IMG/VR virus record: IMGVR_UViG_3300010883_000190
Location: 1 to 34,093 of that record
From: a virus
Reading direction: 5' to 3' (one strand)
Length of the DNA: 34,093 bases
Shown one piece after another: positions 384-29,600 of the stretch. The position numbers and the translations under genes are program-made. The first letter of the stretch is position 1; every line of letters begins with the position of its first letter. Under the pieces are notes generated by a model. That model did not search any database. It had not been told where the DNA came from and saw only the letters and a program-made list of their open reading frames with translations.

Positions 384-754
384 TGGCGTTTAAACTTGGA
401 AATAAACCTTTACCAGGTATTGCTCGGGGAGGTGATATCAATAAAAAGCACGGCTTCAAGATCGAGAGAGCTAAACTAGATGATGGTGTCTTAGGTGAAG
501 CTCATCCAGGGAAGGTTATTATAGATAACAAGGTTGAAGAAGGTAGTGCTCAGGAGAAAAGAGTGCTATCGCACGAAGGTCAACATGTGAAAGATATGGA
601 TAGTGGTAAAGCCGCTTTTGGAGATGACTGGGTTAGATGGAATGGCAGTACATATGCTAGGAAGGACGGGAAGATAAAATACAATGGTAAGTGGAAGGAT
701 GAGGGAGACAGTTCTTTCCCTTGGGAGCAATCAGCTATAAAAGCAGAAAAATGA
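383..754 (+). CDS. Small HExxH zincin-like protein (putative metallopeptidase)
   Basis: This 123-residue protein carries HEGQH at residues 64-68 in the context VLSHEGQHVKDM, the signature of gluzincin-type zinc peptidases, where the two His bind zinc and the Glu activates water. A third ligand is not certain; E115 in the downstream PWEQSA segment is a candidate. No signal peptide is visible. It starts at the ATG in TAATG and ends in an ATGA overlap with the holin-like gene. Being coupled to a holin raises the possibility that it is a lysis enzyme, although it lacks the HxH pattern of M15 or LysM/M23 endolysins. Other options are a virion maturation protease, since no other prohead protease is seen here, or a virion-carried effector. 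Similar short 'putative peptidase' proteins are familiar to me from marine phage genomes. The motif is clear; the function is inferred. Confidence 0.72.
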   Translation: MAFKLGNKPLPGIARGGDINKKHGFKIERAKLDDGVLGEAHPGKVIIDNKVEEGSAQEKRVLSHEGQHVKDMDSGKAAFGDDWVRWNGSTYARKDGKIKYNGKWKDEGDSSFPWEQSAIKAEK

Positions 755-1143
755 ATATACTAGGTAAACTATTTTCCAGTGGAGCAACTGAGCTAGTCAA
801 AGGTGTAGGAGGAGTTTTAGACAACTTGATAACATCTAAGGACGAGAAGCTAGAAGCAGAGCTAAAGATAAAAGAATTAATCTCTAAGTACGAAATAGAG
901 ATGGAGAGCAATATAACAGCTCGATGGGAGGCAGATGCAAAGTCAGATTCGTGGCTTTCTAAGAACGTTAGACCATCGGTGTTGGTATTCCTAATAGTTT
1001 GCACCATGCTTCTTATATTTATAGATGCCGGTACAATAGACTTCGACGTCAAAGCCTCCTGGGTTGATTTATTACAATTAGTATTAATAACCGTAATAGG
1101 TGCATACTTTGGCGGTAGGTCATTAGAGAAAGTAAAAAAATAA
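751..1143 (+). CDS. Holin-like membrane protein (GTA-type 3TM holin-like)
   Basis: I choose the ATG at 751, which overlaps the previous stop as ATGA, giving 130 residues. A TTG at 721 would add ten residues lying inside the upstream gene. Residues 1-28 form an amphipathic helix. Residues 30-65 are a charged helix ending in WEADAKSDSWLSKNVRP. Two hydrophobic segments follow at about 75-94 and 104-122, and the C-terminus is basic. The charged Trp/Lys/Asp segment just before the first membrane span is characteristic of holins in the GTA_holin_3TM family, which open the inner membrane at the end of infection. The adjacent zincin-like gene may be its lysis partner. The family assignment is from recognition of the pattern, not a search. 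Confidence 0.75.
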   Translation: MNILGKLFSSGATELVKGVGGVLDNLITSKDEKLEAELKIKELISKYEIEMESNITARWEADAKSDSWLSKNVRPSVLVFLIVCTMLLIFIDAGTIDFDVKASWVDLLQLVLITVIGAYFGGRSLEKVKK

Positions 1144-2495: not shown

Positions 2496-2697
2496 GATCA
2501 CGATAGGTAAAGACTACAAGAATGACTCCATGCACTATGCCGTAGGGCAGGAAGTGTATGGAGGTCATACTATCTGTGATATATTAGAAGAGGAAACAAA
2601 GTACTCTATATATATCAAGAAAGGGAAAGCGGTTATACCTTGGAAGGATTTCAATAAGAATATGGCTATATCCGTTGAGTATAACCTGGAGTACTAA
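2476..2697 (+). CDS. Small beta-rich hypothetical protein
   Basis: This is 73 residues, starting inside the end of the upstream gene. It begins MSHLIRKITIGKDYKNDSMHY, then VGQEVYGGHTICDI, YSIYIKKGKAVIPWKDF and ISVEYNLEY. The pattern is short alternating strands with Gly turns, so a small beta-barrel-like fold is likely. There is one Cys and no catalytic motif. It ends in TAATG with the GroES-like gene, which fits translational coupling. I recognise the general look (MSHLIRKI at one end, EYN near the other) from uncultured marine phages but know of no function. Confidence 0.58.
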   Translation: MSHLIRKITIGKDYKNDSMHYAVGQEVYGGHTICDILEEETKYSIYIKKGKAVIPWKDFNKNMAISVEYNLEY

Positions 2698-3290
2698 TGC
2701 ACTCGGTTTACAACTATATTGTTGAACCACTAGGAGAAAGGTACAACAACATTAAGCAGGTTGGGGATAAAGAGTTAATACTAAACACAGAGGTTTTTAA
2801 TCATCAGCATGTTAATAGAGAAGCTTTAGTGTTGGCTGTGCCTCAAGCAGGTGCACCATTATATATAAAGCGTGGAGATATAGTTATAGTACATCACAAT
2901 GTGTTTAGACGTTGGCACGATGTAAAGGGTAGAGAAAGGAACAGTAGCTCCTTTTTAGAGGAAGGCAAGTACTTAGTATCTCAAGATCAGATCTTTTTAT
3001 ATAAAAGAAATGGTGATTGGATTTGCCCTAAGGGATATTGTTTTGTACAACCTATAAAGGACAATAGCCAGTTAAGTAGCGAAACAGAGAGGCCACATGT
3101 AGGTGTTGTTAAATACTCTGACGGAACTGTTTCCAAAGGGGATATAGTTGGGTTTAGGCCTAGCAGTGAGTTTGAGTTTGTTATAGACGGTCGAAGGATG
3201 TATCGAATTTTATCTAATTTTATTACAATTAAATATGAATATCAAGGAGACGAAGAGGAATATAATCCAAGCTGGGCACAAGGCAGTTGA
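2697..3290 (+). CDS. Tandem GroES (Cpn10)-like protein, candidate co-chaperonin
   Basis: A 197-residue protein with two similar halves. Residues 5-104 start with YIVEPLGERYNN and reach VLAVPQAG, then KRGDIVIVHHNVF (G60-D61), a loop, and YLVSQDQIFLY. Residues 109-182 start with WICPKGYCFVQPI and reach VGVVKYSDGTVSKGDIVGF (G148-D149), then FEFVIDGRRMYRILSNFITI. Both follow the GroES order: an N-terminal strand like 'DRVIVKR', a mobile-loop region, a 'GEVLAVG' strand, a 'VGDIVIF' strand, and a final 'EEVLIMSESDILAI' strand. GroES caps GroEL during folding, and phages such as T4 (gp31) carry a version for capsid folding. Two fused copies in one chain are unusual for a phage. It sits just upstream of the packaging and capsid genes. 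Whether it binds host GroEL is inferred; sequence identity is low and the call depends on strand order. Confidence 0.62.
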   Translation: MHSVYNYIVEPLGERYNNIKQVGDKELILNTEVFNHQHVNREALVLAVPQAGAPLYIKRGDIVIVHHNVFRRWHDVKGRERNSSSFLEEGKYLVSQDQIFLYKRNGDWICPKGYCFVQPIKDNSQLSSETERPHVGVVKYSDGTVSKGDIVGFRPSSEFEFVIDGRRMYRILSNFITIKYEYQGDEEEYNPSWAQGS

Positions 3291-13307: not shown

Positions 13308-16300
13308 ATGCCAGAGATCAAGCACACTTTTGCAGGGGGTAAGATGAATAAGGACATGGATGAACGTATAGTTCTAGATGGTCAATATAGAGATGCTCTT
13401 AATATACAGATAGCTACTTCAGATGGTTCAAATGTAGGTTCAGCTCAAAACATCCCAGGTAACACAAAAAAGGATACAACGGCTACCGGTGATACTATAG
13501 TCCTAAGCAACGCCGTGTGCGTAGGTGCATTAATCAACGACAGTACTAGCAAGATATATAGCTTAATATCATCGCGTATCGCAGGTGGTATAAGTAAGGA
13601 TTATATATTTGAGTTTGATACAAAAACAAATAGATCTAAGTATGTATTTATAGATATACATAGCGTTAGTTTTGTGTCGCTCACTACGGTTAGCAACAAT
13701 ATTGTTTACATATCAGACTCAGCATCTCCTAATATTAATAAAACAGGTGTTAGAATAGGCATGAGCTTCACAAGTGGCTTGTACTCTCTTGATAATGATA
13801 TAACCGTTACTAATATAATATATGATACCGGTAATAGCAGGTGGGCTATATACTTAAGTGAATCCGTTTCTGTTACTGCTAGTGACATAGGTATATTCAT
13901 AGCGAATAAAGTTCTAAATTTTCCACGAACAGGTTTAATAACCGGTATTAATATACTAGGTGACTCACTTTTTTGGACAGATAATAGTACTGAACCTAAG
14001 AGAATTAACATAACTAGATCAATAGCTGGTACAGGTGGCACAGAGTATTTACATACAGGGTTAGCGACTTCAAATGCCGCACATGCTGGGTTTGGATATA
14101 TCAGTTTAAACACATCTAACACTTCTAACTCTTTTTCAGGTGACACTGGTTACTTCCACACAAGATTAACAAAGAGTGTGTTAACAGGTGCTACTACTGA
14201 TAACTCATTTGAGGTTGTGACTAACACGGCTAAGAATAAAGTGGTTGACGTCGAAGAAGCTCATATAACTGTTATAAGGAAAGCACCAACTCAACCGTTG
14301 CAATTAGATATGTCTAGGACTTCTTTATCTAGAATCGCTAGTGATGGGGCTATAAACCCGGTATCAACAGTTGCCCCGAATGTAATAATAAATAACACTT
14401 TATTTCCCGCGGGATCAACTATAAGTAATGTAACAGTTTCTAGTAATGTAGATTTCAGAATAGGTGATATAGTTCTATTCAGAGCCTTGTTGGTTAACAC
14501 CAGCTCTAATAGCAGTGGCAACAGTGTTAGAACAGAGGTTACAGAGTCAAGTGTAACTAACTCAAACTCTATGGCTACCACTGGGTTTGATTTCAAAGTT
14601 ATATCCATAGTACCTGATCTTCCAGGTGAATCAACAGATTGGGATTTAACGCTAGAAGATGCTGAGCCCATGTTTAGGTCTAGGTTTCCTAGGTTCTCTT
14701 ATAGGTATAAATATGAAGATGGTGAGTACTCCACTTTTGCCCCATGGTCTAAGGTTGCCTTTCTTTCAGACACGTTTGAATACTTGCCTAAAAAAGGTTA
14801 CAATCTAGGTATGGTGAACCAGTTACGTGGTTTAAAACTAAAAGGGTACCATCCTTTCAATACACCCGAAGATGTGGTGTCAATAGATATTCTGTACAAA
14901 GAGACTAATAATCCAACTGTTTACTCAGTTAAAACAGTCAAACCAGTTGATGGTCACCCTATATGGCCTAGCTTGAGTGCTGATGTTGATTCTAGAGGGG
15001 AGTTTGAGGTTAAGACAGACATGATTCACATGGTTGTACCGTCTAATCAACTGCTGCGCCCGTGGGACAATGTGCCTAGGAAAGCTCTTGGACAGGAGGT
15101 TAGTGCTAATAGACTTATATATGGTAACTACTTACACAACTATACTGTAAACAAGGACCCAATAATAAATGTTAGTTTAGATCAGTTAGCAACTGTATCC
15201 GATACGCAACCATCCTCACCTTCCGTTAAAACACTCCGTGATTATCAGGTTGGTGTAGTTTTTAGTGATGAATACGGTAGAGAAACACCGGTATTAACAA
15301 ATGAAGGTGCGGCTATAAATGTCCCTATAGAAGCCTCCTACACCAGTAACAGGTTGAAAGTGAACATGGGCTTCGGTACTATAATACCAGATTGGGCTAA
15401 ATACTTCTCTTACTACATAAAAGAAGCGTCAACTGAATATAATAACCTGCCTATGGACAGGTGGTATAACGCGTCTGATGGTAATATATGGTTGTCATTC
15501 CCGTCCTCTGAAAGAAATAAGCTAGATCTAGAGTCATTTATATACTTGAAAAAGACTCACGGAACAGATGATTTCGCTGGCGGTAAAACTAAATATAAGA
15601 TACTAGCGATAGAAGAGGAGGCTCCGGATTTCATAAAAACAAAGAGGAAAGTAGCTGGTACATGTTATAATACAGATAGTAATAACAATGAGAATTTTGG
15701 GAATAGCAACGGTGGGTACTTATATGAGGGATTTGATTATGTGATTGTAGTTGAGTCAGTCTTTGATGGTGCTTTTGGTAGCGATTTTATGACACGTGTA
15801 CCAGACACTTTAACCGTTAGTTTTAGTGATGGAGATAATAGAACTGTAGAATATAAGGTTGATCAGATATCAAAGTCTAGTGCTGATTATTACATAGTCA
15901 AAATTGAGGGTGTTTTCGGTTCTGATGTATCTTTTGCTACTACAAATGGAATGTGGAGCGGAAGGATAGATAACTTACGTATGCAGATGTCCCAGTACGA
16001 TACTGAGAATAAACCAGAATTTGATGGTAGATTTTTTGCTAAGATATTTAAAGATGCGAATCTAACCTCTTATGTATTGTCTTATACTCAACCAGAGGCT
16101 AACTACATAGTAGACGCGTCATGGAACTGTAAGTATATAAACAACAACGGATACAATATCAATCCCCCTAACTTCCACCCTAGTGTCCCTTATAATGCTA
16201 AAGAAGTTACTCAAGCTCAGGCAAGTCTTTGGGACATGCAGACTGGCTCCTCGTCAGGGGAGCGTAAATACCACCCCACTGTATATAGTCATCATTATCA

Positions 16301-18866
16301 GTATTATTGGGACAGCGGTACAACAGGAGTTAATGTTAACGACATTAACAACCACCCAGTTAGAGCTGTTAATGGTTCTAGTGGTGATAGCGAAAACTTC
16401 TGGGAGGATGTAGCAAGTGCTAAAATGTTTTTTATAGACGCTTGTACTGCTTACTCTTGGGCTGGTGAACAGAATAATAAACCCGGTAATCACTATATCG
16501 GAGATAATACAACGGAAATATGGAGCAGTGGTGCACATGCTTGGGGTAGAAAAGAAGGTGCCCCTGCATTTGGTGGTTACCAGCAGGTTCAAGGTAATAT
16601 GAAGAGTCAGCGTGGAATGCCTAGTAGGGGTATATGGAATGCTCCAAACCAAGATAGCTCTAGCTATATGGATATATCCTGGGCAGGGATGGGTGTAGCA
16701 CACGATGGTGCAAACTGGAGCTCAATACCTTATCCACATATGCTACAAGATCTTTCGTCTGAAGCGTCATATACATCGGCTGGTAATTTCATAATGACAC
16801 TAGTGGAGCCAGGTACTAAATTCCGCTTTAGACTAGATCCTGATAAGACAATTTATACAGTAGAGGACTTTTCAAGTGCTTTTCTTTTTGGGTATAACAT
16901 GTCCTATCATTGGAAAAACGGTTCTAATTACAAATCTGGAGCTTTTGGTATAAGAAACTACAAGACTAGTGATGATAAACATCAGTTTGAAGGCGCTAAT
17001 ATGAGACAGCGTTGGACGTTAAAGGTTTATCCTAAGATAGGTAGTGGTCCTAGTGGGTATAATCCTGTTACAGGTACTGTGCCTCAAAGCAATGTCAGTG
17101 TAACGGCTCTACATCACGATGGTACGAATAATGACCAGATAGACATAATGGTTCCAGAGGAGAGTGGAGACATATATGGAAATATATCCAACTACAATAA
17201 CAACCCAGCTGTATGGGAGGTGGAACCTAAAGAAAGTGTAGATATAGATATTTACTACCAAGCTAGTGGTTTAATACCTCTTAAATTAAACAACAAGACT
17301 AACGAGGGATATATACCTATCGGATCTACATTTAAGCTCGTTAACTCTACTGGCCTTGCTTCAACACACACTGTGACATCATGGGATCATAAGACAATAA
17401 CCTTCACGCCTGTCGTACCTGCCGATGTTACTCTAAATAACTTTACAACTATAGAGTTTGATAAGAGCGATAATCATTCACTAACCGCTATGATAGCTGG
17501 TACATATAGTGAGAATGCTTCCGCTTTCATTCTAAGAGACTCCATTGCTTCACTTGGTAATTCGGAGCTACTTCACAGGCAAACTCATAAGTTACCTTGG
17601 AACAACTGCTGGTCATTCGGTAATGGCGTCGAATCTGATAGAATAAGAGATGATTACAATGAGAACCAAATGGATAACGGGGTGAAAGCCTCCTCTGTTT
17701 TAAACAAGCAATTAAAAGAAGAGAGAAGGAAGCACGGTCTCATATGGTCTGGTATATACAATTCAAATGTAGGTATAAACGATACTAACCAGTTTATAAT
17801 AGCTGAGGGTATAACCAAAGATTTAAACCCTAGCTATGGTAGCATACAAGCCTTGTTGAATAGAGATACAAGGCTAGTTATGTTCTGTGAAGATAAAGTT
17901 CTTAGAGCGGAGACAAACAAAGACGCTTTATATAACGCTGATGGAAACCCTCAGTTAATAGCGAGTAACAGGGTTATTGGAGATGTAACCCCATATCGTG
18001 GAGATTATGGTATATCCAGGAATCCAGAATCGCTAGCTATAACGCCTAATAATTCCTATTTTACTGATATAGACAGGGGTCAAGTGTTAGTTCTATCTGT
18101 TGAGGGTGTTAGATCTATTTCAGATGTAGGCATGAGGAATTACTTTTCTAAATTTAAAAGCTCTTTTATTGATAAAGCTGTAGGTTCTTACGATAATGAG
18201 AGTAACGAATATAACATAACTATTAGCGAGAAACTACCTGTCATCAAGAACAGCACTATATCATATAGTGAAAGATCTAAAGGTTGGGTTAGTTTTAAAT
18301 CATTTATACCTGAGATGGGGGTAAGTATAGATAATGATTATTACACCTTTAAGAATGGGTATACGTATAAACACCATTCTAATTCTTTATTCAACAACTT
18401 CTATGGCACTCCATACACGTCTAGTATTACGCTACTATTTAATGATATATCTGGTAGTGTTAAAAGCTTTGGTTCTATAAATTACGAGGGATCGCAAGCT
18501 AAAGTAACTGAGTTTGACACAGCCACTGTAAATTTCTTTAACAACAACTACGCTCTAAATGGTCTAGACGGCTTGATATCTGTGACTGTAAACGATAGTG
18601 AGTTTTTTAACCTAAATGCTTCTTTAGGTTGGTATACAGATAGTATAAAAACAAACTTGCAAGATAGTGGTATTATAGAATTTAAAAACAAAGAGGGGAA
18701 GTGGTTTGGTTATCCAACAGGCGTTGCTTCTACTTTAAGTAACTTAGATACTAAAGAATTCTCAACACAGGGTCTAGGTGAGGCTTCTATAGTAACAGAG
18801 GACCCTGGTTTAGGCAACCCATCCAGTATATATATATCTGACTCCTCAGCAGGTGGTTGGGATTAA
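13308..18866 (+). CDS. Giant tail stabilization/nozzle-like protein
   Basis: 1852 residues, the second largest product here. The N-terminus (EIKHTFAGGKMNKDMDERIV, then GQYRDALNIQIATSDGSNVG) is the start seen in phage stabilization or tail tubular B-type proteins, T7 gp12-like beta-propeller nozzles that sit under the portal. A propeller-like C-terminal part spans about residues 1435-1720, with repeats such as ISYSERSKGWVSF and PYTSSITLLFND. The middle third (about 780-1330) is rich in Asn, Tyr, Gly and Trp and low in motifs; it may be an inserted receptor or appendage domain. No membrane or signal segment is seen. In the podovirus-like plan it would close the tail tip and hold the fibres. T7 gp12 is about 800 residues, so this version is more than twice as long. 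Confidence 0.75.
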   Translation: MPEIKHTFAGGKMNKDMDERIVLDGQYRDALNIQIATSDGSNVGSAQNIPGNTKKDTTATGDTIVLSNAVCVGALINDSTSKIYSLISSRIAGGISKDYIFEFDTKTNRSKYVFIDIHSVSFVSLTTVSNNIVYISDSASPNINKTGVRIGMSFTSGLYSLDNDITVTNIIYDTGNSRWAIYLSESVSVTASDIGIFIANKVLNFPRTGLITGINILGDSLFWTDNSTEPKRINITRSIAGTGGTEYLHTGLATSNAAHAGFGYISLNTSNTSNSFSGDTGYFHTRLTKSVLTGATTDNSFEVVTNTAKNKVVDVEEAHITVIRKAPTQPLQLDMSRTSLSRIASDGAINPVSTVAPNVIINNTLFPAGSTISNVTVSSNVDFRIGDIVLFRALLVNTSSNSSGNSVRTEVTESSVTNSNSMATTGFDFKVISIVPDLPGESTDWDLTLEDAEPMFRSRFPRFSYRYKYEDGEYSTFAPWSKVAFLSDTFEYLPKKGYNLGMVNQLRGLKLKGYHPFNTPEDVVSIDILYKETNNPTVYSVKTVKPVDGHPIWPSLSADVDSRGEFEVKTDMIHMVVPSNQLLRPWDNVPRKALGQEVSANRLIYGNYLHNYTVNKDPIINVSLDQLATVSDTQPSSPSVKTLRDYQVGVVFSDEYGRETPVLTNEGAAINVPIEASYTSNRLKVNMGFGTIIPDWAKYFSYYIKEASTEYNNLPMDRWYNASDGNIWLSFPSSERNKLDLESFIYLKKTHGTDDFAGGKTKYKILAIEEEAPDFIKTKRKVAGTCYNTDSNNNENFGNSNGGYLYEGFDYVIVVESVFDGAFGSDFMTRVPDTLTVSFSDGDNRTVEYKVDQISKSSADYYIVKIEGVFGSDVSFATTNGMWSGRIDNLRMQMSQYDTENKPEFDGRFFAKIFKDANLTSYVLSYTQPEANYIVDASWNCKYINNNGYNINPPNFHPSVPYNAKEVTQAQASLWDMQTGSSSGERKYHPTVYSHHYQYYWDSGTTGVNVNDINNHPVRAVNGSSGDSENFWEDVASAKMFFIDACTAYSWAGEQNNKPGNHYIGDNTTEIWSSGAHAWGRKEGAPAFGGYQQVQGNMKSQRGMPSRGIWNAPNQDSSSYMDISWAGMGVAHDGANWSSIPYPHMLQDLSSEASYTSAGNFIMTLVEPGTKFRFRLDPDKTIYTVEDFSSAFLFGYNMSYHWKNGSNYKSGAFGIRNYKTSDDKHQFEGANMRQRWTLKVYPKIGSGPSGYNPVTGTVPQSNVSVTALHHDGTNNDQIDIMVPEESGDIYGNISNYNNNPAVWEVEPKESVDIDIYYQASGLIPLKLNNKTNEGYIPIGSTFKLVNSTGLASTHTVTSWDHKTITFTPVVPADVTLNNFTTIEFDKSDNHSLTAMIAGTYSENASAFILRDSIASLGNSELLHRQTHKLPWNNCWSFGNGVESDRIRDDYNENQMDNGVKASSVLNKQLKEERRKHGLIWSGIYNSNVGINDTNQFIIAEGITKDLNPSYGSIQALLNRDTRLVMFCEDKVLRAETNKDALYNADGNPQLIASNRVIGDVTPYRGDYGISRNPESLAITPNNSYFTDIDRGQVLVLSVEGVRSISDVGMRNYFSKFKSSFIDKAVGSYDNESNEYNITISEKLPVIKNSTISYSERSKGWVSFKSFIPEMGVSIDNDYYTFKNGYTYKHHSNSLFNNFYGTPYTSSITLLFNDISGSVKSFGSINYEGSQAKVTEFDTATVNFFNNNYALNGLDGLISVTVNDSEFFNLNASLGWYTDSIKTNLQDSGIIEFKNKEGKWFGYPTGVASTLSNLDTKEFSTQGLGEASIVTEDPGLGNPSSIYISDSSAGGWD

Positions 18867-18877
18867 AAATTAAGAAA
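18863..18877 (+). promoter_or_regulatory. A-rich leader identical to the capsid gene leader
   Basis: The 15 bases ttaaaaattaagaaa are identical to 9256-9270 and touch the ATG directly, and again contain the upstream stop codon. The repeat suggests a shared translation-initiation element for abundant proteins. Confidence 0.4.
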
Positions 18878-20830
18878 ATGGCAAATTGGACTATAGATTA
18901 TACAGGTGCTGTTTTAACGGGAACTGTAGGTACAGCTGTTACGGCGGGGGAAACTATCTCCGCGGTAATAAAACCTATAGATGAGAATGGTGATATATCT
19001 GGATATTACATAGAGGCGAAGAACTTTATGATAGGTAATGCAGCTCAAGGCACTGGTTCACCTACCCTGCTTAACACTTGGACTGGCGGTAATGTCGATA
19101 CTGAAGTTAACAGTATTGTATTCGCAGACCTTGGTACGCCAGGTGACATTGACAATACTGTCTCTATGGTAGTTACTTTAAATGGGTTCACCCCAGCAGC
19201 TGAGGTAGACACCTTGACATTTGATGTTGATGAAAACCCAGCACATCCAATCAGTATTTTTGTTGAAAGCAAGTCAGCTATATTAGCATCTTGGCCATTC
19301 GTTAATACAGCTCAACACACTGTAGCTATTGACACCACCTACTCTACTTACACAACTACTACATTAGGTGATGTTGCAACGCCAGCTTTACATAGCGTAG
19401 TAGCCACCCCGCAAGATGAGGCTTTTTCAAAAATCTTTAGCGCTACGTTTACCAGTGGTGCCAGTTACCATTATACAGACAACCCCACTGCTTCTTTAAC
19501 CAACCTAGGTACATATATTGATAACTACGTTGTTAAGATTGATAAAACTATATCAGGTGGTTTAACAACAGCATTTACTGTTAACGTATTATATAGCCCA
19601 CCTAAAAGTGGTTCTAACTACCCAGACCCAGTTAATTTTAGTTCACTAGGTCACAGGTTAAACTTAAGCTATAACGTAGTGCCCAACGAGGTCTCTGTCA
19701 CTAACACTATAACTAGTGTAACGGTTAATAAACGTGTTTCTTACTTAGGCGGTGAGCAGTTAATACAGGTTTATGGTACAGCTGGAGCTAGTTATACTAT
19801 TTATGCGCAAAACAAGACATCTAATGAGTACTATGATTTTAACGGAAGTTATCAAGCCGCCTCTATAGGGGAGATTGGAGTTGTAGATTCCAAAGGTAGC
19901 TCATGGCACGTGCTTAATATTCCATCATCGACAGTGGATGTATCTTACGATATTCTTGTTGTTGGCTTGGACAGCGTTACTCTAAATAGTATAGTGCCAA
20001 CGGTATCTGGTGATTTAGTTATAGTTCAATATGGATTAAAGACAGCTAGCATAAACCTACACTCGCACACGTTAGCTAATTTCAGTACATTACCTTCAGC
20101 TATAACTTTTGCTAGAGGAGGGAGATACAAGGGTGATTACTTTACTACGATAAGCGCTATAACAACTACTGGGTATGCCTCAACAAGAGGATCTTCAACA
20201 TTCGTTAATCTAACTAAATATAATCCAGTTATAAAACCCGGTATGCTAGCCATAGGTAATCTAATACCTTATAACACAACTGTATTAGATGTTAATGAGA
20301 GTTATATAGTGTTAAGTCAAGCTTCAACGCTAAATTCAACTACTATTAAGTTTATAGAAAATACAGCGGATATAGTGCCTTTTTCTTTTTCGGTGGCTCC
20401 TAATAATAATACTTTAAGTGTTAACGCCTCTAATGACCACGTAAGGTCTGTATGGGGTTTTGATGATGTAACTGGAATTGTAAGTGGAAATCAAACTGGA
20501 AGTGCTAAAACTTTAGTGTTAGATTCAACTAATGGTATATTAGTTGGCATGCAAGCTACAGGCGCTGGTATAACGGCTGGGTCGTTAGTAAATACTATCA
20601 CGGATGCTACTACTCTACAACTGGATACTACTTACTCAAGCGTAACGGACGATGCTGAAATTGAGTTTAGTGGAGCTAATAATCCTGAGATGTCCGTCGT
20701 TAGTATGGTGGTTACTAAAGTTGGAACAAACATAGTTATAAGCGGATATATAAAAGCTAGGGAGGTAACAACCACGGCAGATATAAAAATAAATATAGAT
20801 GACATGATCACAATATCAGCGGCACCATAA
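18878..20830 (+). CDS. Beta-rich tail fibre/appendage protein
   Basis: I start at the ATG at 18878, giving 650 residues, because it follows a clean A-rich leader; a TTG at 18857 lies within the upstream coding end. The protein is rich in Thr, Ser, Val and Gly. Near residues 450-500 a unit reads PGMLAIGNLIPYNTTVLDV, and near 555-610 a related unit reads VGMQATGAGITAGSLVNTI. Both then have a 'L...T' beta segment ending in I.F. This 'GM.v.G.gI..gt.V..i' unit is common in phage fibre and spike proteins. Its position after the tail hub gene fits a tail appendage. No catalytic site for a depolymerase is visible. It ends in TAATG with the next small gene. Confidence 0.7.
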   Translation: MANWTIDYTGAVLTGTVGTAVTAGETISAVIKPIDENGDISGYYIEAKNFMIGNAAQGTGSPTLLNTWTGGNVDTEVNSIVFADLGTPGDIDNTVSMVVTLNGFTPAAEVDTLTFDVDENPAHPISIFVESKSAILASWPFVNTAQHTVAIDTTYSTYTTTTLGDVATPALHSVVATPQDEAFSKIFSATFTSGASYHYTDNPTASLTNLGTYIDNYVVKIDKTISGGLTTAFTVNVLYSPPKSGSNYPDPVNFSSLGHRLNLSYNVVPNEVSVTNTITSVTVNKRVSYLGGEQLIQVYGTAGASYTIYAQNKTSNEYYDFNGSYQAASIGEIGVVDSKGSSWHVLNIPSSTVDVSYDILVVGLDSVTLNSIVPTVSGDLVIVQYGLKTASINLHSHTLANFSTLPSAITFARGGRYKGDYFTTISAITTTGYASTRGSSTFVNLTKYNPVIKPGMLAIGNLIPYNTTVLDVNESYIVLSQASTLNSTTIKFIENTADIVPFSFSVAPNNNTLSVNASNDHVRSVWGFDDVTGIVSGNQTGSAKTLVLDSTNGILVGMQATGAGITAGSLVNTITDATTLQLDTTYSSVTDDAEIEFSGANNPEMSVVSMVVTKVGTNIVISGYIKAREVTTTADIKINIDDMITISAAP

Positions 20831-21192
20831 TGGCATTAATAACATTAACATTTACAGCTCCATTGAATACCTCTTGTCAGGTCGGAGATGTAGCTTACTA
20901 TGTAAGCACAACAACCGAAGCTGGGTTTGAAGTAAACAACGGCGACATAGTTGAGATAGGCGAGATAAGAGAAATAACTGGCGCTACAACAGCGTCACCA
21001 ATAGTTAAGTGCGAAACCACTGCTAATGGTGACTTAAATAGTACAACTCAATTTATATTATTTAGCAAAGATAATAAGGCTAATCTTAGTTCTATACTAG
21101 GGTATTACGCAGAGGTTAAGTTAGTTTGTGATGCTACAACTGAGGCTGAGATCTTTAGTGTTGGGATGGATATATTTGAAAGCAGTAAATAA
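20830..21192 (+). CDS. Small beta-rich tail-associated protein
   Basis: 120 residues, coupled to the fibre-like gene by TAATG. It starts MALITLTFTAPLNTSCQVGD, then VAYYVSTTTEAGFEV, NGDIVEIGEIREI and a C-terminal YAEVKLVCDATTEAEIFSVGM, which reads as a string of beta strands. It has two Cys and no membrane segment. The 'QVGDVAYYV' opening occurs in several phage structural proteins of unknown function. It could be a fibre adaptor or a cap on the preceding protein. Confidence that it is a gene is high; its role is unknown. A 46-base A/T-rich gap follows. Confidence 0.62.
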   Translation: MALITLTFTAPLNTSCQVGDVAYYVSTTTEAGFEVNNGDIVEIGEIREITGATTASPIVKCETTANGDLNSTTQFILFSKDNKANLSSILGYYAEVKLVCDATTEAEIFSVGMDIFESSK

Positions 21193-21238: not shown

Positions 21239-21736
21239 ATGACTAACAATAGCTTACAAGAGAGTGACAAGAAAGAACTAGCTAGGAGTTTTAATTCAAC
21301 AGTGGATAAGCTATATAGAAACTTAGTTGCTAATGCTGATGGAGAAAATATAATAGTTGGTACGAAAGATAAACCTATAGTTACAAACTCGGATAAGCTA
21401 CCTATAGAACACTTCTTCATGGATAGTGTTTATATTAGGAAAATGACGATGTACGAGGAGACTGTAGTTGTTGGTGCGATACATAAGCACTTGCATATTT
21501 GCTTCCTATTATCTGGACACATAACAGTTTCCAGCAAGGAGGGTACAGCAGAATACAAGGCACCATGTCACATAGTAGCAACGCCTGGTATTCAAAGAGT
21601 TTTATATGCACATGAAGATTCCGTGTGGTACAATATACACAAAAACCCCACTAGCACAGAAGATATTAGTCAACTAGAAGAGGAAATTGTAGTTACAACC
21701 CAAAAAGATTATGAAGAATATATCAAAAATAAATAG
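21239..21736 (+). CDS. Cupin-fold protein in the tail cluster
   Basis: 165 residues. After a helical N-terminus (residues 5-30), residues 75-125 form a cupin-like core: VVVGAIHKHLHICFLLSGHITV (His at 82, 84 and 86), then YKAPCHIVATPGIQRVLYAHEDSVWYNIH. These match the cupin pattern 'HxH....l..G...' followed by 'P.g..H' and a terminal HxN-like end. A metal-binding site could use H82, H84 and H115 or H124, although the usual Glu of motif 1 is not obvious. Cupins include small-molecule enzymes, sugar isomerases and structural units. In phages cupin-like modules occur in tail and fibre proteins. Its place between tail and ejection genes suggests a virion role, but an enzyme acting on host sugars is possible. 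Confidence 0.65.
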   Translation: MTNNSLQESDKKELARSFNSTVDKLYRNLVANADGENIIVGTKDKPIVTNSDKLPIEHFFMDSVYIRKMTMYEETVVVGAIHKHLHICFLLSGHITVSSKEGTAEYKAPCHIVATPGIQRVLYAHEDSVWYNIHKNPTSTEDISQLEEEIVVTTQKDYEEYIKNK

Positions 21737-21739
21737 AAC

Positions 21740-22492
21740 ATGGCATTTGCATTAAGCACAGTAGCGCTAATAGGTCTGGGTATAGCTGTAACTGGAGGCA
21801 CAGCTAAAGCTATAGATGGCGGGGTGAAAGCTAACAAGGCAAAAAAAGCAGCCGCTAAAGCGAAGATAGAGCTAGATAAACACAAGCGTTCTTTCGAAGC
21901 CTTAGACACTAGTAATCCATATCTCAATATGGAAAACATGATGGAGGACTTGACGGTTAATCAAAAGCAAGCGGAGTTTCAAAAGCAACAGTCTATGCAG
22001 TCACAATCTAATATTATGCAATCTATGCGCGGTGCAGCGGGTGGGTCTGGTATAGCATCTTTAGCCCAAGCATTAGCTAATCAAGGCTCTCTAGATGCTC
22101 AGAAAGCGTCCGTGTCTATTGGAACTCAAGAAGCTAATAACCAAAGACTAGAACGAGGGGAAGCTAGTAGAATACAAGGATTGGAGAGATCAGGTGATCT
22201 CATAAGTAGACAAGCTAAAATGGGTAAGGTTGAATCTCTAATGGGGATGTCAGCGGATGAACTAGCTAACCGTAAGGCGGAGCAAGCCGCTGGTAACGCC
22301 CAGATGTACCAAGGTATTTCAGATGTTGGTAACTCAATGATGTCGTATGGAGGAGTGGGGGGAAACAAAACCACGGGTGGTGTTGATGGAGGTAGTATGT
22401 CCGGGGTAGATTTTAATTCTAGCTTAGGAAATCCTTATGACATATCGTCCAACCCGTACGAATGGCAACAGTGGAATTCAGAACACCAATAA
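21740..22492 (+). CDS. Putative internal virion/ejection protein with N-terminal TM helix
   Basis: 250 residues, three bases after the cupin-like gene. Residues 4-22 are a hydrophobic helix (ALSTVALIGLGIAVTGG), followed by a Lys/Ala-rich helix (KANKAKKAAAKAKIELDKH). Residues 75-190 are Gln/Ser/Gly-rich (KQQSMQSQSNIMQS, GAAGGSGIASLAQAL) and low complexity. The C-terminus is Gly/Ser/Asn-rich and ends in YEWQQWNSEHQ. The architecture resembles T7 gp14-type core proteins, which are ejected into the outer membrane. It opens the run of three candidate cargo genes ending in the giant protein. The family is inferred. Confidence 0.65.
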   Translation: MAFALSTVALIGLGIAVTGGTAKAIDGGVKANKAKKAAAKAKIELDKHKRSFEALDTSNPYLNMENMMEDLTVNQKQAEFQKQQSMQSQSNIMQSMRGAAGGSGIASLAQALANQGSLDAQKASVSIGTQEANNQRLERGEASRIQGLERSGDLISRQAKMGKVESLMGMSADELANRKAEQAAGNAQMYQGISDVGNSMMSYGGVGGNKTTGGVDGGSMSGVDFNSSLGNPYDISSNPYEWQQWNSEHQ

Positions 22493-22495
22493 ATT

Positions 22496-23641
22496 ATGGC
22501 TAAATTAGATTATAGACTAACAGGTAATACCTTAGATAGAGTCAAAGCGGCGGACGCTACTATACTTCCAGAGACATCAGCTTGGGACGCTATTGAAAGC
22601 ATCGGGAAAGATATAGAAGAAAATATAAAAGGTAAACAGGATTCTTTAGCTTTATGGGACACCGGTTTTGAGTCACTAGACGACCGAGGGTCATGGGCAT
22701 CAACAGATTTATTTGATTCCTTTCAACTTCTGGAAACTGGTTACAGAGATGAATTCATTAACGCTGTAAAGAGTGGTGATAAACAACTGCAGGCTAAGTT
22801 ACTTAAACAACAGGGGGATAGGTCTTCTTCTTTACAATCGTGGAAGGGCACTATGGATGTAGCTAAAAGTACTAATGACGACATAGGTTGGGGAGCTGTT
22901 GTAACTAATAACTCTGAGAATAAGCAAATACTAGGAGCTCTAGCAGCCCAAGATGGTACAGCTAGAATGCGTATGACGGATAAGATGGAAATGGTATTCG
23001 ACATCGATATACTTGATGATAATGGTAATGTAACACATACTAAGACCGTTAAGAGATCTGAGGTAGATGATTTAGTATCTAAAGGTATGATACCATACGA
23101 GAGAGAAAACGATTGGTTTGATGGCTTATTAGCTATAGAAGAGTCAGGGTTGAGTAATAAATCTTTTCATGACGATATACAGTTAAAGAGAAATATGAGT
23201 CAGATCAAGCCTGAGAATGTTGAATCTATGATATATGACAAGTGGACAGGAACAACCTCTTTTGCCGAGGATTTCCTTGAGCATCCAGAGCTAAATAGCG
23301 GATACATGCAGTTGGCTGATCTAGACGGAGATGGTACTTTAAGCAAATATGAGCTAGGTCAAAATGCTCCATCTCAAATGTTAGAAGCGATGGCTGGTGA
23401 TGCCGATGTGGCTAGGGATATTTTAGCAGAATGGATGACCATGAAGCAGAAGAAAATGTGGACGGTTGGCAACAAGAAATACAAGCAAGAAGCGTGGGCA
23501 AAACAACAGAAGGATAACGAAGGGAGCGATAGTGACGGAGATGACGGCGAATGGGATCCCGAAGAGGAAGCTGATGATATGATAGCGAGGCTACTCGGGG
23601 GAAGTTTTGGGGGATGGCCAGATCTTTATCCAGAAAACTAA
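22496..23641 (+). CDS. Putative internal virion protein with an EF-hand loop
   Basis: 381 residues. The N-terminal 130 residues are mixed helix (LDDRGSWASTDLFDSFQLLE and following), followed by a beta hairpin (VFDIDILDDNGNVT). Residues 275-286 read DLDGDGTLSKYE, a textbook EF-hand calcium loop with D275, D277, D279, G280 and E286. The C-terminus has an acidic stretch (GSDSDGDDGEWDPEEE) that could also bind calcium. No membrane segment is visible. Located between the TM-containing small ejection candidate and the giant protein, it is a candidate second core protein. Calcium could control assembly or ejection; that is inference. Confidence 0.65.
   Translation: MAKLDYRLTGNTLDRVKAADATILPETSAWDAIESIGKDIEENIKGKQDSLALWDTGFESLDDRGSWASTDLFDSFQLLETGYRDEFINAVKSGDKQLQAKLLKQQGDRSSSLQSWKGTMDVAKSTNDDIGWGAVVTNNSENKQILGALAAQDGTARMRMTDKMEMVFDIDILDDNGNVTHTKTVKRSEVDDLVSKGMIPYERENDWFDGLLAIEESGLSNKSFHDDIQLKRNMSQIKPENVESMIYDKWTGTTSFAEDFLEHPELNSGYMQLADLDGDGTLSKYELGQNAPSQMLEAMAGDADVARDILAEWMTMKQKKMWTVGNKKYKQEAWAKQQKDNEGSDSDGDDGEWDPEEEADDMIARLLGGSFGGWPDLYPEN
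23318..23353 (+). other. EF-hand calcium-binding loop in the internal virion protein
   Basis: The 12 codons give DLDGDGTLSKYE, with D at 1, 3 and 5, G at 6, a hydrophobic residue at 8 and E at 12, as in canonical EF-hands. Helical flanks (NSGYMQLA before and LGQNAPSQMLEAMA after) support an intact helix-loop-helix. Confidence 0.7.
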
Positions 23642-23659
23642 TTTAGTAATATATATTTT

Positions 23660-26600
23660 ATGAACGAAGAGCAGATTAGACTTATCATGGCTAAGTTAAA
23701 AGCTGAAGGTAAGACACTAGAACAAGCTAAACAGGTTATTGAAGTTCTCAAAGCAAGAGCGGAAGCTCAAGCATTGTATGGGAAACCTGTGTCAGCATCT
23801 AACGAAAAACCAGTTACCACAAAAGAGACAGCAGCTAGTAAAGCTAAGTCTATGTACGGACAACCCGTATCCGAGAAGCCAAAAAAAGCAAAGGACTCCC
23901 CAGAGAGCGCGAGTGGAGAGTCGTCAATATCTGCGCTGACAGAACCAGGTACGGGTTTAGAGCCGGAAAGTGGTTCATCGGAATCACCAGGGAAGACTAA
24001 CAGCGAACGTGAGATAACCGCGTATAGTACTATAAAGTCTAGATACAAGAGAGATGACCAATCTAACGGTGACTTCTGGGAAGAATTAAAACCTGTTAAG
24101 TATCAGGCTACTATGAAGGAGGCTCAGGCTATGTATGGAACGCACTTAGCTGATATACCTAAAGAGGGTTTTGTCACATATGGTGGGGTGAAGAAAAGTG
24201 AAGATCCCGTTAAGTTCTTAGAGTTAAAGTATCTACATGATATTCACAATAGAGCTGGGGTAATACGATCTAAAAAAGCTGGTGATTCTCACGAAAATCT
24301 ATCAGATATAGAGGTATTACAAGAAAATAAAGGTTACAAGGAAAAGATAAAAGACTACGAGGCTGATCCAGATTTAGCTTATAGCTATAAGGATTTCGCG
24401 GACTACACGGAAGACTCAAATGACGAGTTAGTAGCTAGCTTTACAGATACGTATGCTCAATCTATGGCGCCATTTGCTGATAGACAAGAACAAGATAGGA
24501 GTGACTTAGTAGATGGTAAGTTGAGAGCCAAATATGAGGACATTGTTAAGCAAGACTGGGAAAATCCTAGCAGTTGGTTAGGTATGGAGCTTGAGGCACT
24601 AAAGATTAAATATAAAGATATTCAGAATCCGTCTATCACAGACGAACGCCGCTCTGAATTACAATCTAAGCTTATTGAGGAAGTTAATAGTCTCCAGCAG
24701 AATAGATTCTCTAGTTTGATAAACAAAGACCCAGCCTATATAAAGCTTATTACAAAGCAACTTGTAGATATAGATACTGAGGAAGAAAGGTTATTCAATG
24801 ATTTTGCTAAAAATCTAAAGCCTAAATTAAGTGTGCTTACAGAGGACGAGCTGAGTTCTATAGGTGACAGACTAGATAAAGTAGGTTTTGCGTCTGCTAA
24901 CGCTCCTGATAAGAAGAAGATACTAGAGATAACGTTACAAGATATAATTAGGGAGCTTCCAGATTTAAGCGACCAAGGGGTTTTAGATGTTAAGAATGAA
25001 TTTTGGAACCACTTTTATACTAAGCTGCAAGAGTCTACAATTGGAGGTCCATCTCAGTTTGTCTTAAAGGACGTTGCGCAAGAAACCTTAGAGTACACAA
25101 ATACAAGGATAGAAGAGCTAATTGGTAATGAGGTTGAGCGTTTAAAGAGTGAAGGTTATAAACCTAAAGAAAGAAAAGGACTTACTGTCTCTATAAGTGA
25201 CCAAGCTGCCTTTAACGTTATTAGGTCTGAAGAAGGTAGAGTCCTAGAATTAGCTAAAGTAAAAGCTGAGGATGTTATTTCAAATCCAGAGTCTACTAGT
25301 GATATGGGTGATGCGGATTTTTGGGCTGGGGCTACATCTGCTAGAGGACATAAATATATGCCTGTATTTGGAGGTATAATTGATATGTCTCACTCATGGC
25401 GTGTTAAAACCGCTCAAGACAAAGCACCTGAGGATAGATCTAGATCTGACAATACACTACTTGGCATGCTGTCTATAGAACAACAGAGTAATTCTATAAA
25501 GCGTGAGATATCTGAGAACTATAATGCTGGTGTCATACTAGGTGATATGGTACCTTACATGGGTGAGTTTATATTAACTGGTGGTATTTTTACAGCTACA
25601 AAATCAGCTGTGAAAATAGGTCTCAAGAAAACATTAGCTAAAAAAATAACTGGTAGTGCTAAGACTAGGGTGATTAATGGTAAGTGGGCTTTTGTTAAGA
25701 AAGGTGCTGGAGTTAAGATATCAGAGAAAACAATCGATGCTCTTGCAATGTTAACAGGTGTTGGTGCTCAGAATGCCTCACAGTGGTGGAGGATATCTGG
25801 TGGTTTAGCTGAGAATATGACAGACGAAATGTTGTGGTCTTACTCTAGTGACGCTGATTCAACTTTGGATGAACTATCCTTGATACCTGTTGTAGCAGGT
25901 GAAGATGGTGCACCAGATGGTTTGGAACACGGTGATAACTTTGGTAAAGCTTTTTTAAGGTCATTCGGTACTAATTATGCTGAGCTATTCACTGAGAGAC
26001 TAGGTTATTATATGCCTGGTTTAGGTAAAAAGGGGTTAAACTTACTGAAGACAAAAAAAGGTCCACTTGGCGATCTACTGACAGATTCCAACTGGCTAAA
26101 GCGTGTTTCACTAGGTCACTTTTTACGTAAAGTTAAATTTGACAATATTAATGACTTTATGCGGTGGTCAAAAAAAACCGCAGGATGGAACGGTATACTA
26201 CAGGAGATCACGGAGGAGCTTATAAACTTTCCGATGCAAAATGTCATTAATGGCGATCCCACTCTGTTAGGTATATATAACTACAACCAGGATGGCACTA
26301 GAGGAGACGTTGACTGGCAGGGTTTAAGAGAGATGAGCAAAGCTATAGCCTTTAGTGGTTTAGTATTTGGAGCAGGTGCTGTTGTACATGGGGCTGCTAC
26401 AGGTCGTAAAGCACCAGCTTATTATGTTGACGGTGTTTATTATCAAACCTGGGCAAAAGCTAAAGCACGTCTAAAGAAAATGCCAAAGTCTAAAATCACT
26501 TCAGATCTAGACATTGAAATAAGAAATGACTACATGGCTTACGATGAAGCCGCTGATATACTTAAGAAAGCAGGTGTAGAGGAGGATATCATTAAGACTA

Positions 26601-29600
26601 GAGGCGCTGGTGTTTCCAGTGGTGAACTTGTTGCTACTGAAGTTGAGATACTAAATGCTATAGAAAGTAAGGAAACAAGGGAAGAGTTAGAGGGGATAGA
26701 TGCTGAGATTGCGGCTCTAGAAAAAGAGAAACAATCCGTGAGCGGTGGATCGAAAAGTCGTTCAGCTAAGACAAAAGCAATAGCTGACATACAGAATGAC
26801 ATAAACGATTTAAAGATAGCTAGGGATAATATAATAAAGCCTATAAGCGATAACATAACAAAACGTAAGAAAACAGCTAGGTACCAAGATATTGTTAGTA
26901 AGATAAGAAAAATTAACGAAAGTCTACCTGAAAACAAGCGTATTGTAATAGATGAGGATACGTCTACATTAGAGGAGTACCAAGCTAAAGTTTCTGAAGT
27001 TTATCTTGCTCAAGCTGGATATAAAGTTGTTAAAGACAGCAACGGTGAATACAAAAAGGGTCAGAGTGCAGACGGTAGAAGCTACATCGAGATATCAACT
27101 GGTGATGTGGTTATAATGGCCAAAGAGGCCATTGATCAGATAGATAATGAGATTAAAGAACAAAGCTTAGTTCACGGTTACATAGATGCAGGTGTAGAAG
27201 GTAAACCATCTCGTATGGTACTAAATAGAGCTGTGGCTTTATCACTTGATGGAACCAACGTAGCTAGTCACGAGTTTTTACACTTCATGCTTGAGGGTAT
27301 ATTCCAGGGTAACCCAGAAGTGTCTTTAGCTGTGGGTGAAACGTTTAAGTCATATATATATAATCTAGATCCAAAGCAAATTAGGGACACTGGATTTAGA
27401 AGCAGAGTGTTACATTATCAAGCTGAGCGCGGTAACATTGTTTCAGCTGAGGAGTCTATGAATCTCTTTGTCGATGCTATAGCTAATGGCACCATGCAAT
27501 ATAACGAAGGTACATTAGTTAAAATTGGCGATGTAATACGTAGAGTGTTACAATCTTTCGGTAAAGAGGTTGTTTTTGAAAACGGTCAAGATGTCTTCAA
27601 CTTCCTTAGGGATTATAGCGACGGTGTTGCTAAGGGTCATTTATCCAAGGGGCTTAAAAAAGCTTTTGATCCAGGTGGCATAAGAGTAGAAGGTCGCATA
27701 TCAGCGTCTAAAGAAATAGCTGCTGAAGGTATAGAAAACAGTAGAAAAATAAACCTTAAGTTAGCTGAGACGCTAGGATTCACAGAAGAAGAGTTTAGAG
27801 AGGTATACGAAAACAACTTAAATAGAAGAAAGTCATCTAAAGAACCTGCTGACTTAAAGGAAAGATTTGATAGGCATACGCAGGTTGATGGGAAACCTAA
27901 GTTTGAATCAAAAGAGGAATGGCTGCAGTCTTCAGAATTTATGGACGCTTACCAAGATATATCAGAGACAAATAGCTTAGATGGTCTCATTAAAAAAGGT
28001 ATGGCCAGTCTTGGTCTTCCTAGCGGTACAGCTGAAATAGATTTCATACAGAGTGTAAAAGATCGACTTGTAGAAAGATTTATCAAGAATTACGATCCTT
28101 CAATGGCTAATGGTAGCTTGTTTGGCTGGTTAACTGGAGAAGCAGGTGGTGGAATGAAAGGTGGGATGATATTCAGGTCTAAGCAGGACATCAAGAAAAA
28201 GTACCTACAAAGAATAAAGACATTAGACTCTGATGCTTCAATGGGTGACGATGTTACCTTTGGGGATATGCACGCGGCAGATGCGGACTTAGGTGTTGAA
28301 GCTTTTGAGGAAGCAGATATGTCTATAGGATCAAAAGGTAGAAGTAAGAGCATTGTAGATAGTCGTACTAGTGAGTACGGTGTTGTCTTTGTTGATAGTA
28401 TAGACTTAGAGAGCGATCTGATAGATAAGATACACGACATAATACGTAACGCTGATGTAGACTTAAATGGATTAGATTATAGGGGTGTAAAAGAACTTAT
28501 TACAGAAGTAGCTGACTTAATTCTAGAGAATGGTAAAAAGAGACGACCAAGTAAAGAGTCAGACGTTAGAGCTCTAGGGCCTTTATATGCCATACTGGAA
28601 GTGATTGGTGAAAAGTTTGACGTTCCAGCCGCTAGAATATTAGCTGGTCAAAACCTAACTTCTCAGTCAAGGAAAAATGCTCAAAAATATATAAAGGAAA
28701 ATGTAACCCAGCTAATGGATATGATTCCAGATAGCGGTACTAGGAGTGGTACGTCAACGGGTGTAGCTAGTTCGTGGTCATTAGGTGATTTATTTACTAA
28801 AGGTAAAAGAGTAAGCTCAGCTTTAGGAGAGGGAACTCAAGGTAGGTATAATCAGGACTTAAATATATTTAGAGAGCTAGATGAAGAGTATTCTCAAGAT
28901 CAAATAGATCTGTTTTTAGGTTTATTTGGTATGACTCCAGATGGAGGGTTTAGCACTGATAGAAACTTAGACAGTCCTATTAGAGCGCTGGTAACTCAAG
29001 CTGCTGTTATTGTAGCTAACCAAACACTCCGCCAACAAGGTATGGAAAGTCGTATTCACCCAGTGAGTATAATAAACTTAGTTGGAGTAGGTAAGTCTAA
29101 TATAATGTACTCTATGGAGTCTGATGTTAACCTTGAAAACTTCAAAAACACATCCGAAAAAGTAGATGGTGTAATAAGGGAGATGGCTATCTACGGTAGT
29201 GTGCTGAACAGCCCTAGTAAAGCAGCTGATGCGGTTGCCGAGAAGCTTGGTGTTGATAGATCTGATTTCAACGAAGCTGTTAAAATTGTAAAAGCAGAGA
29301 TCAAGGAGATTAAAGTACAGCAAGACATATCTAGAATACGTTTCAGTAAAGAAGCGCCGAAGAAGATAGCGGAGATAATTAACGCTGAAGCTAAGAAAAA
29401 GCCTAAGAAAAAGCCTAAGAAAAAGCCTAAGAAGAAAGCTAAAGCCCAAACGGCAAAACAAAAAGCAAAAGCTAAAGCTGATGAAGAAGCTAAAAATAAT
29501 GAGAAAAACTTAGATACAAAGTTCAACAATATTATAGAGGATGTAACTGGGTTTGGTTCTAAAATTGAGGTAAACGCGGCAAGGGCTAATAAAGAGGGTA

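Follow-up and report, generated by a model that had tools for sequence, protein, structure and literature searches.

In the tail region of podophages, the gene that lies just before the ejection proteins is one of those for which explanation is poorer. In T7 and P22 the equivalent slot is held by gp13 (PF11090) and gp14 (PF11039), the former entered in Pfam as 'probable scaffold protein Gp13' and the latter assigned to the head morphogenesis family phrog_651. A GNAT-like identity has been proposed for T7 gp13 (PMC6775973), and a report on the T7-like phage phiPsa17 does not count gp13 among its 11 detected proteins (PMC4517105), so the products of this slot need not be parts of the virion. Cupins in podophage tail regions are also already on record. 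The families concerned are PHROG_12032, named 'short tail fiber protein', and PHROG_24280, named 'tail fiber adhesin', and the VvAW1 genome paper lists that phage's family member under CDD PHA00672 (PMC3558961). ORF43 of Ralstonia phage phiAP1, which may belong to the same family, has been annotated without experimental validation as a short tail fiber whose cupin domain is RmlC-like (PMC8703784). A search of an open-access library with cupin terms showed no experiment on the function of the family, and the word 'cupin' is absent from PMC11440229, PMC13320782 and PMC10172136. The gene analysed here is a new member of this known family.

The window, by which we mean the whole 34,093-nucleotide stretch of IMG/VR record IMGVR_UViG_3300010883_000190, belongs to a short-tailed virus, probably of Bacteroidota bacteria. 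Its terminase and portal place it near podophages of Cellulophaga, Flavobacterium, Tenacibaculum and Maribacter and near a Manatee Spring podophage, to whose terminase that of the window is 63% identical. The features discussed here are collected in Table 1. The muzzle/nozzle-like tail protein matches phi40:1 gp097 (blastp E 5.5e-43) and scores 23.0 bits against crAss_MUZ_C, the crassvirus muzzle C-terminal domain, below the cut-off of 27. The small protein directly upstream of the cupin resembles the C-terminus of the Calle_1/phi40:1 tail protein, with blastp matches to residues 1236-1321 of the 1324-aa Calle_1 protein (E 0.001), to phi40:1 (E 0.010) and to Panino (E 9.6e-8). The 657-aa ORF stands between these two, and the arrangement looks as if an ancestral muzzle gene had been split. 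The protein encoded just after the cupin has no PHROG match at E 0.001, reaching phrog_4398 at E 0.02 only, and a profile of cupin-downstream proteins that includes it reaches phi40:1 gp099 at E 2.1e-5; from its position it is the probable first ejection protein. The next protein along has EF-hand matches below the Pfam cut-off, and the 2729-aa protein is a probable large ejected or internal virion protein. Elsewhere in the window, the GroES-like gene lies near the terminase, as it does in the elemo and phi46:3 phages.

Table 1. Features of the window, with the basis on which each is described.
Feature	Coordinates	Strand	Details and basis
ORF with GTA_holin_3TM (gene-transfer-agent holin) similarity	721-1143		140 aa; 24.2 bits, just below cut-off 24.8
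GroES-like protein	2697-3290		197 aa; phrog_13932 'co-chaperonin GroES', E 2e-15
Muzzle/nozzle-like tail protein	13308-18866	+	1852 aa; phrog_14478, E 1.3e-107
ORF with listed TTG start	18857-20830	+	657 aa; no family found
Protein directly upstream of cupin	20830-21192	+	120 aa; phrog_18548, E 0.0012
Cupin-fold protein	21239-21736	+	165 aa; ATG at 21239, stop ends 21736
Ala/Gly-rich protein	21740-22492	+	250 aa; position, place of P22 gp7 / T7 gp14
Second gene of putative ejection cluster	22496-23641	+	381 aa; position only
Probable large ejected/internal virion protein	23660-31849	+	2729 aa; position and size; weak LPD14 match (23.3 bits, cut-off 27)

The cupin reading frame is open over exactly the interval originally predicted. 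Six close IMG/VR relatives (set A2) share 55-72% identity with the window protein and more distant ones 35-39%. Calculation of dN/dS was tried on four pairs, three of which had saturated dS and gave no ratio; the single computable pair, with locus L024, gave 0.13, which indicates constraint on the cupin codons. On the basis of the relatives and this ratio, we consider the ORF to be a real gene.

By sequence alone the link of this protein to cupins is weak, with no match to Pfam cupin models at E 0.1 by any of 17 family members and a match to the cupin TM1459 over the core at E 0.004 (99-row profile A4). The predicted structure is a different matter. An AlphaFold2 model built from 99 aligned sequences (pLDDT 92.7, pTM 0.82) has a helix at residues 5-31, a beta barrel at about 49-137 and further helices at 143-150 and 155-164. 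Its top Foldseek match in the PDB is TM1459 (E 3.2e-6), and the 50 matches listed are titled as cupins or are cupin-superfamily proteins such as ectoine synthase and KdgF. A VIA comparison with DddK (6a55) gave Z 11.0 and an rmsd of 2.4 over 99 aligned residues, with many cupins tied, and the best BFVD matches are phage proteins, including those of Sphaerotilus phage SnaP-R1 and Ralstonia phage Firinga. As modelled, then, the window protein is a double-stranded beta-helix cupin barrel with added terminal helices, and the original prediction of a cupin fold, which a model of another architecture would have overturned, has held.

We had also been led to expect that such a protein is not a usual phage component, and this is mistaken. 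The window cupin matches PHROG_12032 at E 1.3e-29 and PHROG_24280 at E 3.1e-24, and all members of a 17-member set (A1, which includes 12 phages from the tblastn search) match both. It resembles these families (CDD PHA00672) in sequence, length and late-region gene position, and its subgroup differs from the rest of them in a longer linker (about residues 35-49, in A1) and in a two-residue insertion at 135-136 that is common to 38 of 145 representatives. Fifty GenBank phage records carry the cupin by tblastn, all at below 60% identity and some of them RefSeq duplicates, and the family extends to more than 200 IMG/VR loci. The representatives were obtained from 243 pooled loci (counting the window's own and 14 from GenBank, with some contigs present twice), 236 of which have a family-matching ORF; these ORFs and the window protein gave 203 distinct sequences and, at 85%, 145 representatives. 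Hosts of the podophages that carry the family include Vibrio, Shewanella, Thalassomonas, Rhodoferax, Variovorax, Sphaerotilus, Acinetobacter and others, and the genes sit in the late region beside tail and ejection genes. Eight records of a plasmid collection (six Acinetobacter, two Stenotrophomonas; 40-56 kb, non-mobilizable) also hold a relative, and some of these are perhaps phage-plasmids or misfiled phages. In Rhodoferax phage P26218 (L019, 7899-8771) the cupin is 291 aa long with a C-terminal extension and, separately, one BFVD match to our model carries the name 'SET domain containing protein', so that the two domains may be fused there.

Canonical cupin motifs 1 and 2 carry a metal site of the 3 His / 1 Glu type. 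HKHLH (residues 82-86), PGIQR (116-120) and later His residues (H125 and H134) had been read as a match to this core, and all are present, but HKHLH is not the canonical HxH. Across the 145 representatives, in which conservation is inflated near residues 58-67 and 80-86 because peptide patterns from these same segments served to retrieve the loci, the conserved positions of the first motif are H82 (142/145) and H86 (115/145), the middle H84 being His in only 79, while at R120, the motif-2 position, 133 representatives have Arg and 10 have Lys, making 143 with one or the other. We placed the TM1459 motif-1 ligands H52, H54 and H58, taken from mutant names in Foldseek titles, at window positions 80, 82 and 86 by profile alignment, and assigned position 120 by pattern as the motif-2 equivalent of the fourth ligand, which we take to be H92. 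Residues of ligand type (H, E, Q, D or C) occupy all four positions in none of the 145, three positions in 6, two in 125 and one in 14, so that the complete canonical site is absent throughout this set. Position 80 is Lys, Ala or Arg in 138 of 145, mostly Lys, with Ala in the window. The protein thus resembles TM1459 and other single-domain cupins in its barrel and core profile match, and differs from TM1459 in the replacement of the first and fourth metal-ligand positions (A80 and R120) and in its terminal helices.

What is kept lies partly elsewhere. R67 and G93 are invariant, and Y65 (143/145), H58 (138/145) and H134 (128/145), like R120, nearly so, the counts at 58-67 being subject to the inflation noted above; in set A1 the invariant residues are F60, R67, H82, G93 and G117. 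Given this retention, H58, R67, H82, R120 and H134 could form a binding or catalytic pocket of another kind. The closeness of the fold to the metal and sugar enzymes TM1459 and KdgF, together with the mostly conserved H82, H86 and H134, would suit an active enzyme of isomerase, epimerase or dioxygenase type, carried in the virion or made by the phage, that acts on host polysaccharide or a small molecule, and cupin phage MW202691 has genes annotated 'polysaccharide biosynthesis' and 'pectate lyase superfamily' within a few kb of its cupin. Against this stand the missing ligand set and the basic residue at position 120, the ejection genes that often follow the cupin, and the regions of 14 GenBank phages, in which none of the directly adjacent genes carries a sugar-enzyme annotation. 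We regard such an enzyme as quite unlikely, and a sugar enzyme as the main explanation was set aside on account of the incomplete metal site.

In 142 of the 145 representatives a same-strand ORF of at least 60 aa starts within -150 to +200 nt of where the cupin ends. Among 59 downstream proteins picked, 28 match the DNA ejection family phrog_598, as P22 gp7 itself does, 5 match a second DNA ejection family, phrog_21132, and a few match internal virion protein families, where families can overlap. In 5 of the 14 GenBank phages the record itself calls the following gene product an ejection or internal virion protein, and the record of Shewanella phage X14 labels its cupin 'putative structural protein', the basis for which is not given. 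The family lies between the nozzle or needle gene and the first ejection gene, a placement which in the window depends on the ejection role we ascribe to the following gene; Dickeya phage Amaethon, with its DNA-ejection-family gene upstream of the cupin, is the exception. A tail-needle or plug reading of the cupin was also considered and was lowered in our estimation, since P22 has needle gene 26 in addition to slot gene 14 and since several phages have genes of fibre or collar type upstream of the cupin. That the neighbours are often ejection proteins would also suit an ejected cargo that acts after delivery into the host cell, perhaps on one of its proteins; another phage GNAT, the Rac protein of phiKMV-like phages, has host RNA polymerase as its target (PMC7824862). 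However, annotated GNATs in two phages lie away from the slot, before the head-tail connector, namely SnaP-R1 gp30 (L012, 2116-2553) and JG068 gp29, a GNAT by HHpred; both may be of Rac type. We consider the cargo explanation very unlikely.

Relatives of the window phage by terminase and portal fill the same slot differently. The cupin is absent from seven Bacteroidota-phage relative records searched whole, and between the tail protein and the gp7-like protein all five Bacteroidota-phage relatives tested have a protein of 132-169 aa belonging to phrog_17252; phi46:3 has three small reverse-strand ORFs between this gene and the gp7-like gene, and Calle_1 encodes a protein nearly identical to that of phi40:1. 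A phrog_17252 match is present in Gundel_1 as well. An AlphaFold2 model of the phi46:3 member (pLDDT 92.9) aligned by VIA with 3bln at Z 15.5 and an rmsd of 2.1 over 126 residues, and phrog_17252 is predicted from this to have a GNAT fold, unrelated to the cupin. The phi40:1 member, gp098, is annotated from virion MS/MS, which pulls in the opposite direction to the phiPsa17 gp13 result on whether slot proteins stay in the virion. At one locus (L271, 4546-5336) two GNAT-like ORFs occupy the slot in tandem.

The window cupin is like T7 gp13, P22 gp14 and phrog_17252 in being small and in standing between the nozzle or needle and the first ejection gene, but unlike them in having no detectable relation to any. 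Alignment of the cupin profile with gp13 and gp14 by hhalign gave meaningless local matches only (probability below 4%), and the same method found no sequence link among T7 gp13, P22 gp14 and the Bacteroidota-phage GNATs. The published suggestion of a GNAT for T7 gp13 is accordingly unconfirmed here, and for P22 gp14, which we had likewise presumed to be a GNAT, hhalign also gave nothing. GNAT motif A has the form [QR]xxGx[GA]; it occurs in 1 of 20 phrog_17252-type proteins (apparently out of register), 1 of 15 gp13 and 0 of 6 gp14 sequences. The only PDB sequence matches up to E 1 are, for T7 gp13, two acetyltransferases at a non-significant E of 0.39-0.40 and, for P22 gp14, a glyoxalase at E 0.008. 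Neither protein is among the 50 BFVD matches listed for the GNAT model, about 22 of which are unnamed and were not counted, and NCBIfam gave nothing useful for nine proteins.

A further reading makes the cupin a small fibre of the tail, or the tip of an adhesin, with a surface glycan as its ligand. Some cupins bind sugars, and both the PHROG names and the similar description of phiAP1 ORF43 would agree with such a role. Adhesin tips usually vary, however, and this barrel keeps invariant or near-invariant residues across the 145 representatives; some phages have distinct genes of fibre or collar type close by, and the slot is held in relatives by a GNAT, which to our knowledge is not a fibre fold. 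We therefore think a fibre or adhesin unlikely.

We also asked how the cupin and the other slot proteins are distributed. Among cupin-bearing IMG/VR records, which may be fragments and in which absence is a weak indication, phrog_651 and phrog_308 were each found in 0 of 48 (P22 and T7 controls positive) and phrog_17252 in 0 of 49; the 14 GenBank cupin phages gave no match to phrog_17252, PF11039 or PF11090. Reciprocally, none of 17 IMG/VR records with a GNAT in the slot yielded the cupin, with the same reservation about fragments, nor did any of 7 named phages, a positive control being detected. The families searched for were narrow, and part of this complementarity reflects phylogeny only. 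Strict exclusivity, or replacement of one by the other, looked perfect at first and was refuted by the genes upstream of the cupin, which match acetyltransferase phrog_1249 in 5 of 100 cases and phrog_308 in 2 of 100. In a group of Acinetobacter phages the gene before the cupin encodes a GNAT of 150 aa, in most cases overlapping it by 4 nt, and a custom gp13 profile detects a gp13-like ORF directly before the cupin at L100 (E 6e-7), L088 (E 0.0045) and L090 (E 0.0073). As to ALTERNATIVES OR PARTNERS, a record among those tested usually has either the cupin or the GNAT, and sometimes both as neighbours. Such adjacency in some genomes means that one does not simply stand in for the other, and the pattern fits better with two factors that serve one process than with one replacing the other.

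Weighing these observations, we give about an even chance to the cupin, whose metal site is no longer complete, being a podophage virion-morphogenesis factor or an accessory to the ejection apparatus in the virion. Its gene is a late one, placed after that of the tail muzzle/nozzle and before those of the ejection proteins. The protein would most likely act as a binding module, its barrel and added helices holding or chaperoning an ejection protein while the particle is assembled, or else the junction of nozzle and ejectosome, and it may possibly stay in the virion. A location in the virion, binding of an ejection protein and performance of the job done by T7 gp13 or P22 gp14 are all things we infer. 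The original prediction left the choice between a structural element and an enzyme acting on host polysaccharide; the structural half fits better, and the enzymatic half is opposed by the absence of a complete metal tetrad from all 145 representatives and by the ejection genes so often found downstream. Because the family is widespread in podophages, lies beside DNA-delivery genes and has an incomplete metal site, we think it likelier that the cupin helps to build the virion than that it is an enzyme acting on sugars.

More tentatively, and as a generalisation that we hold to be possible but doubtful, podophages may load their ejection machinery through small accessory proteins drawn, on two occasions or more, from enzyme folds whose catalytic signatures were lost, once as a GNAT (T7 gp13-like, phrog_17252) and once as a cupin that lacks its metal site, the two being substitutes in most lineages and side by side in some. 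The window cupin would then be a new-fold counterpart of T7 gp13. We regard the comparison of slots as the part most worth following. Two unrelated enzyme folds in one position, mostly as alternatives in the records tested, make for a testable idea on how ejection proteins are loaded. This idea would improve on annotations such as 'short tail fiber' or 'hypothetical', and it carries the cautions that phage cupins should not be read as sugar enzymes and that the PHROG name 'tail fiber' is not a tested function.
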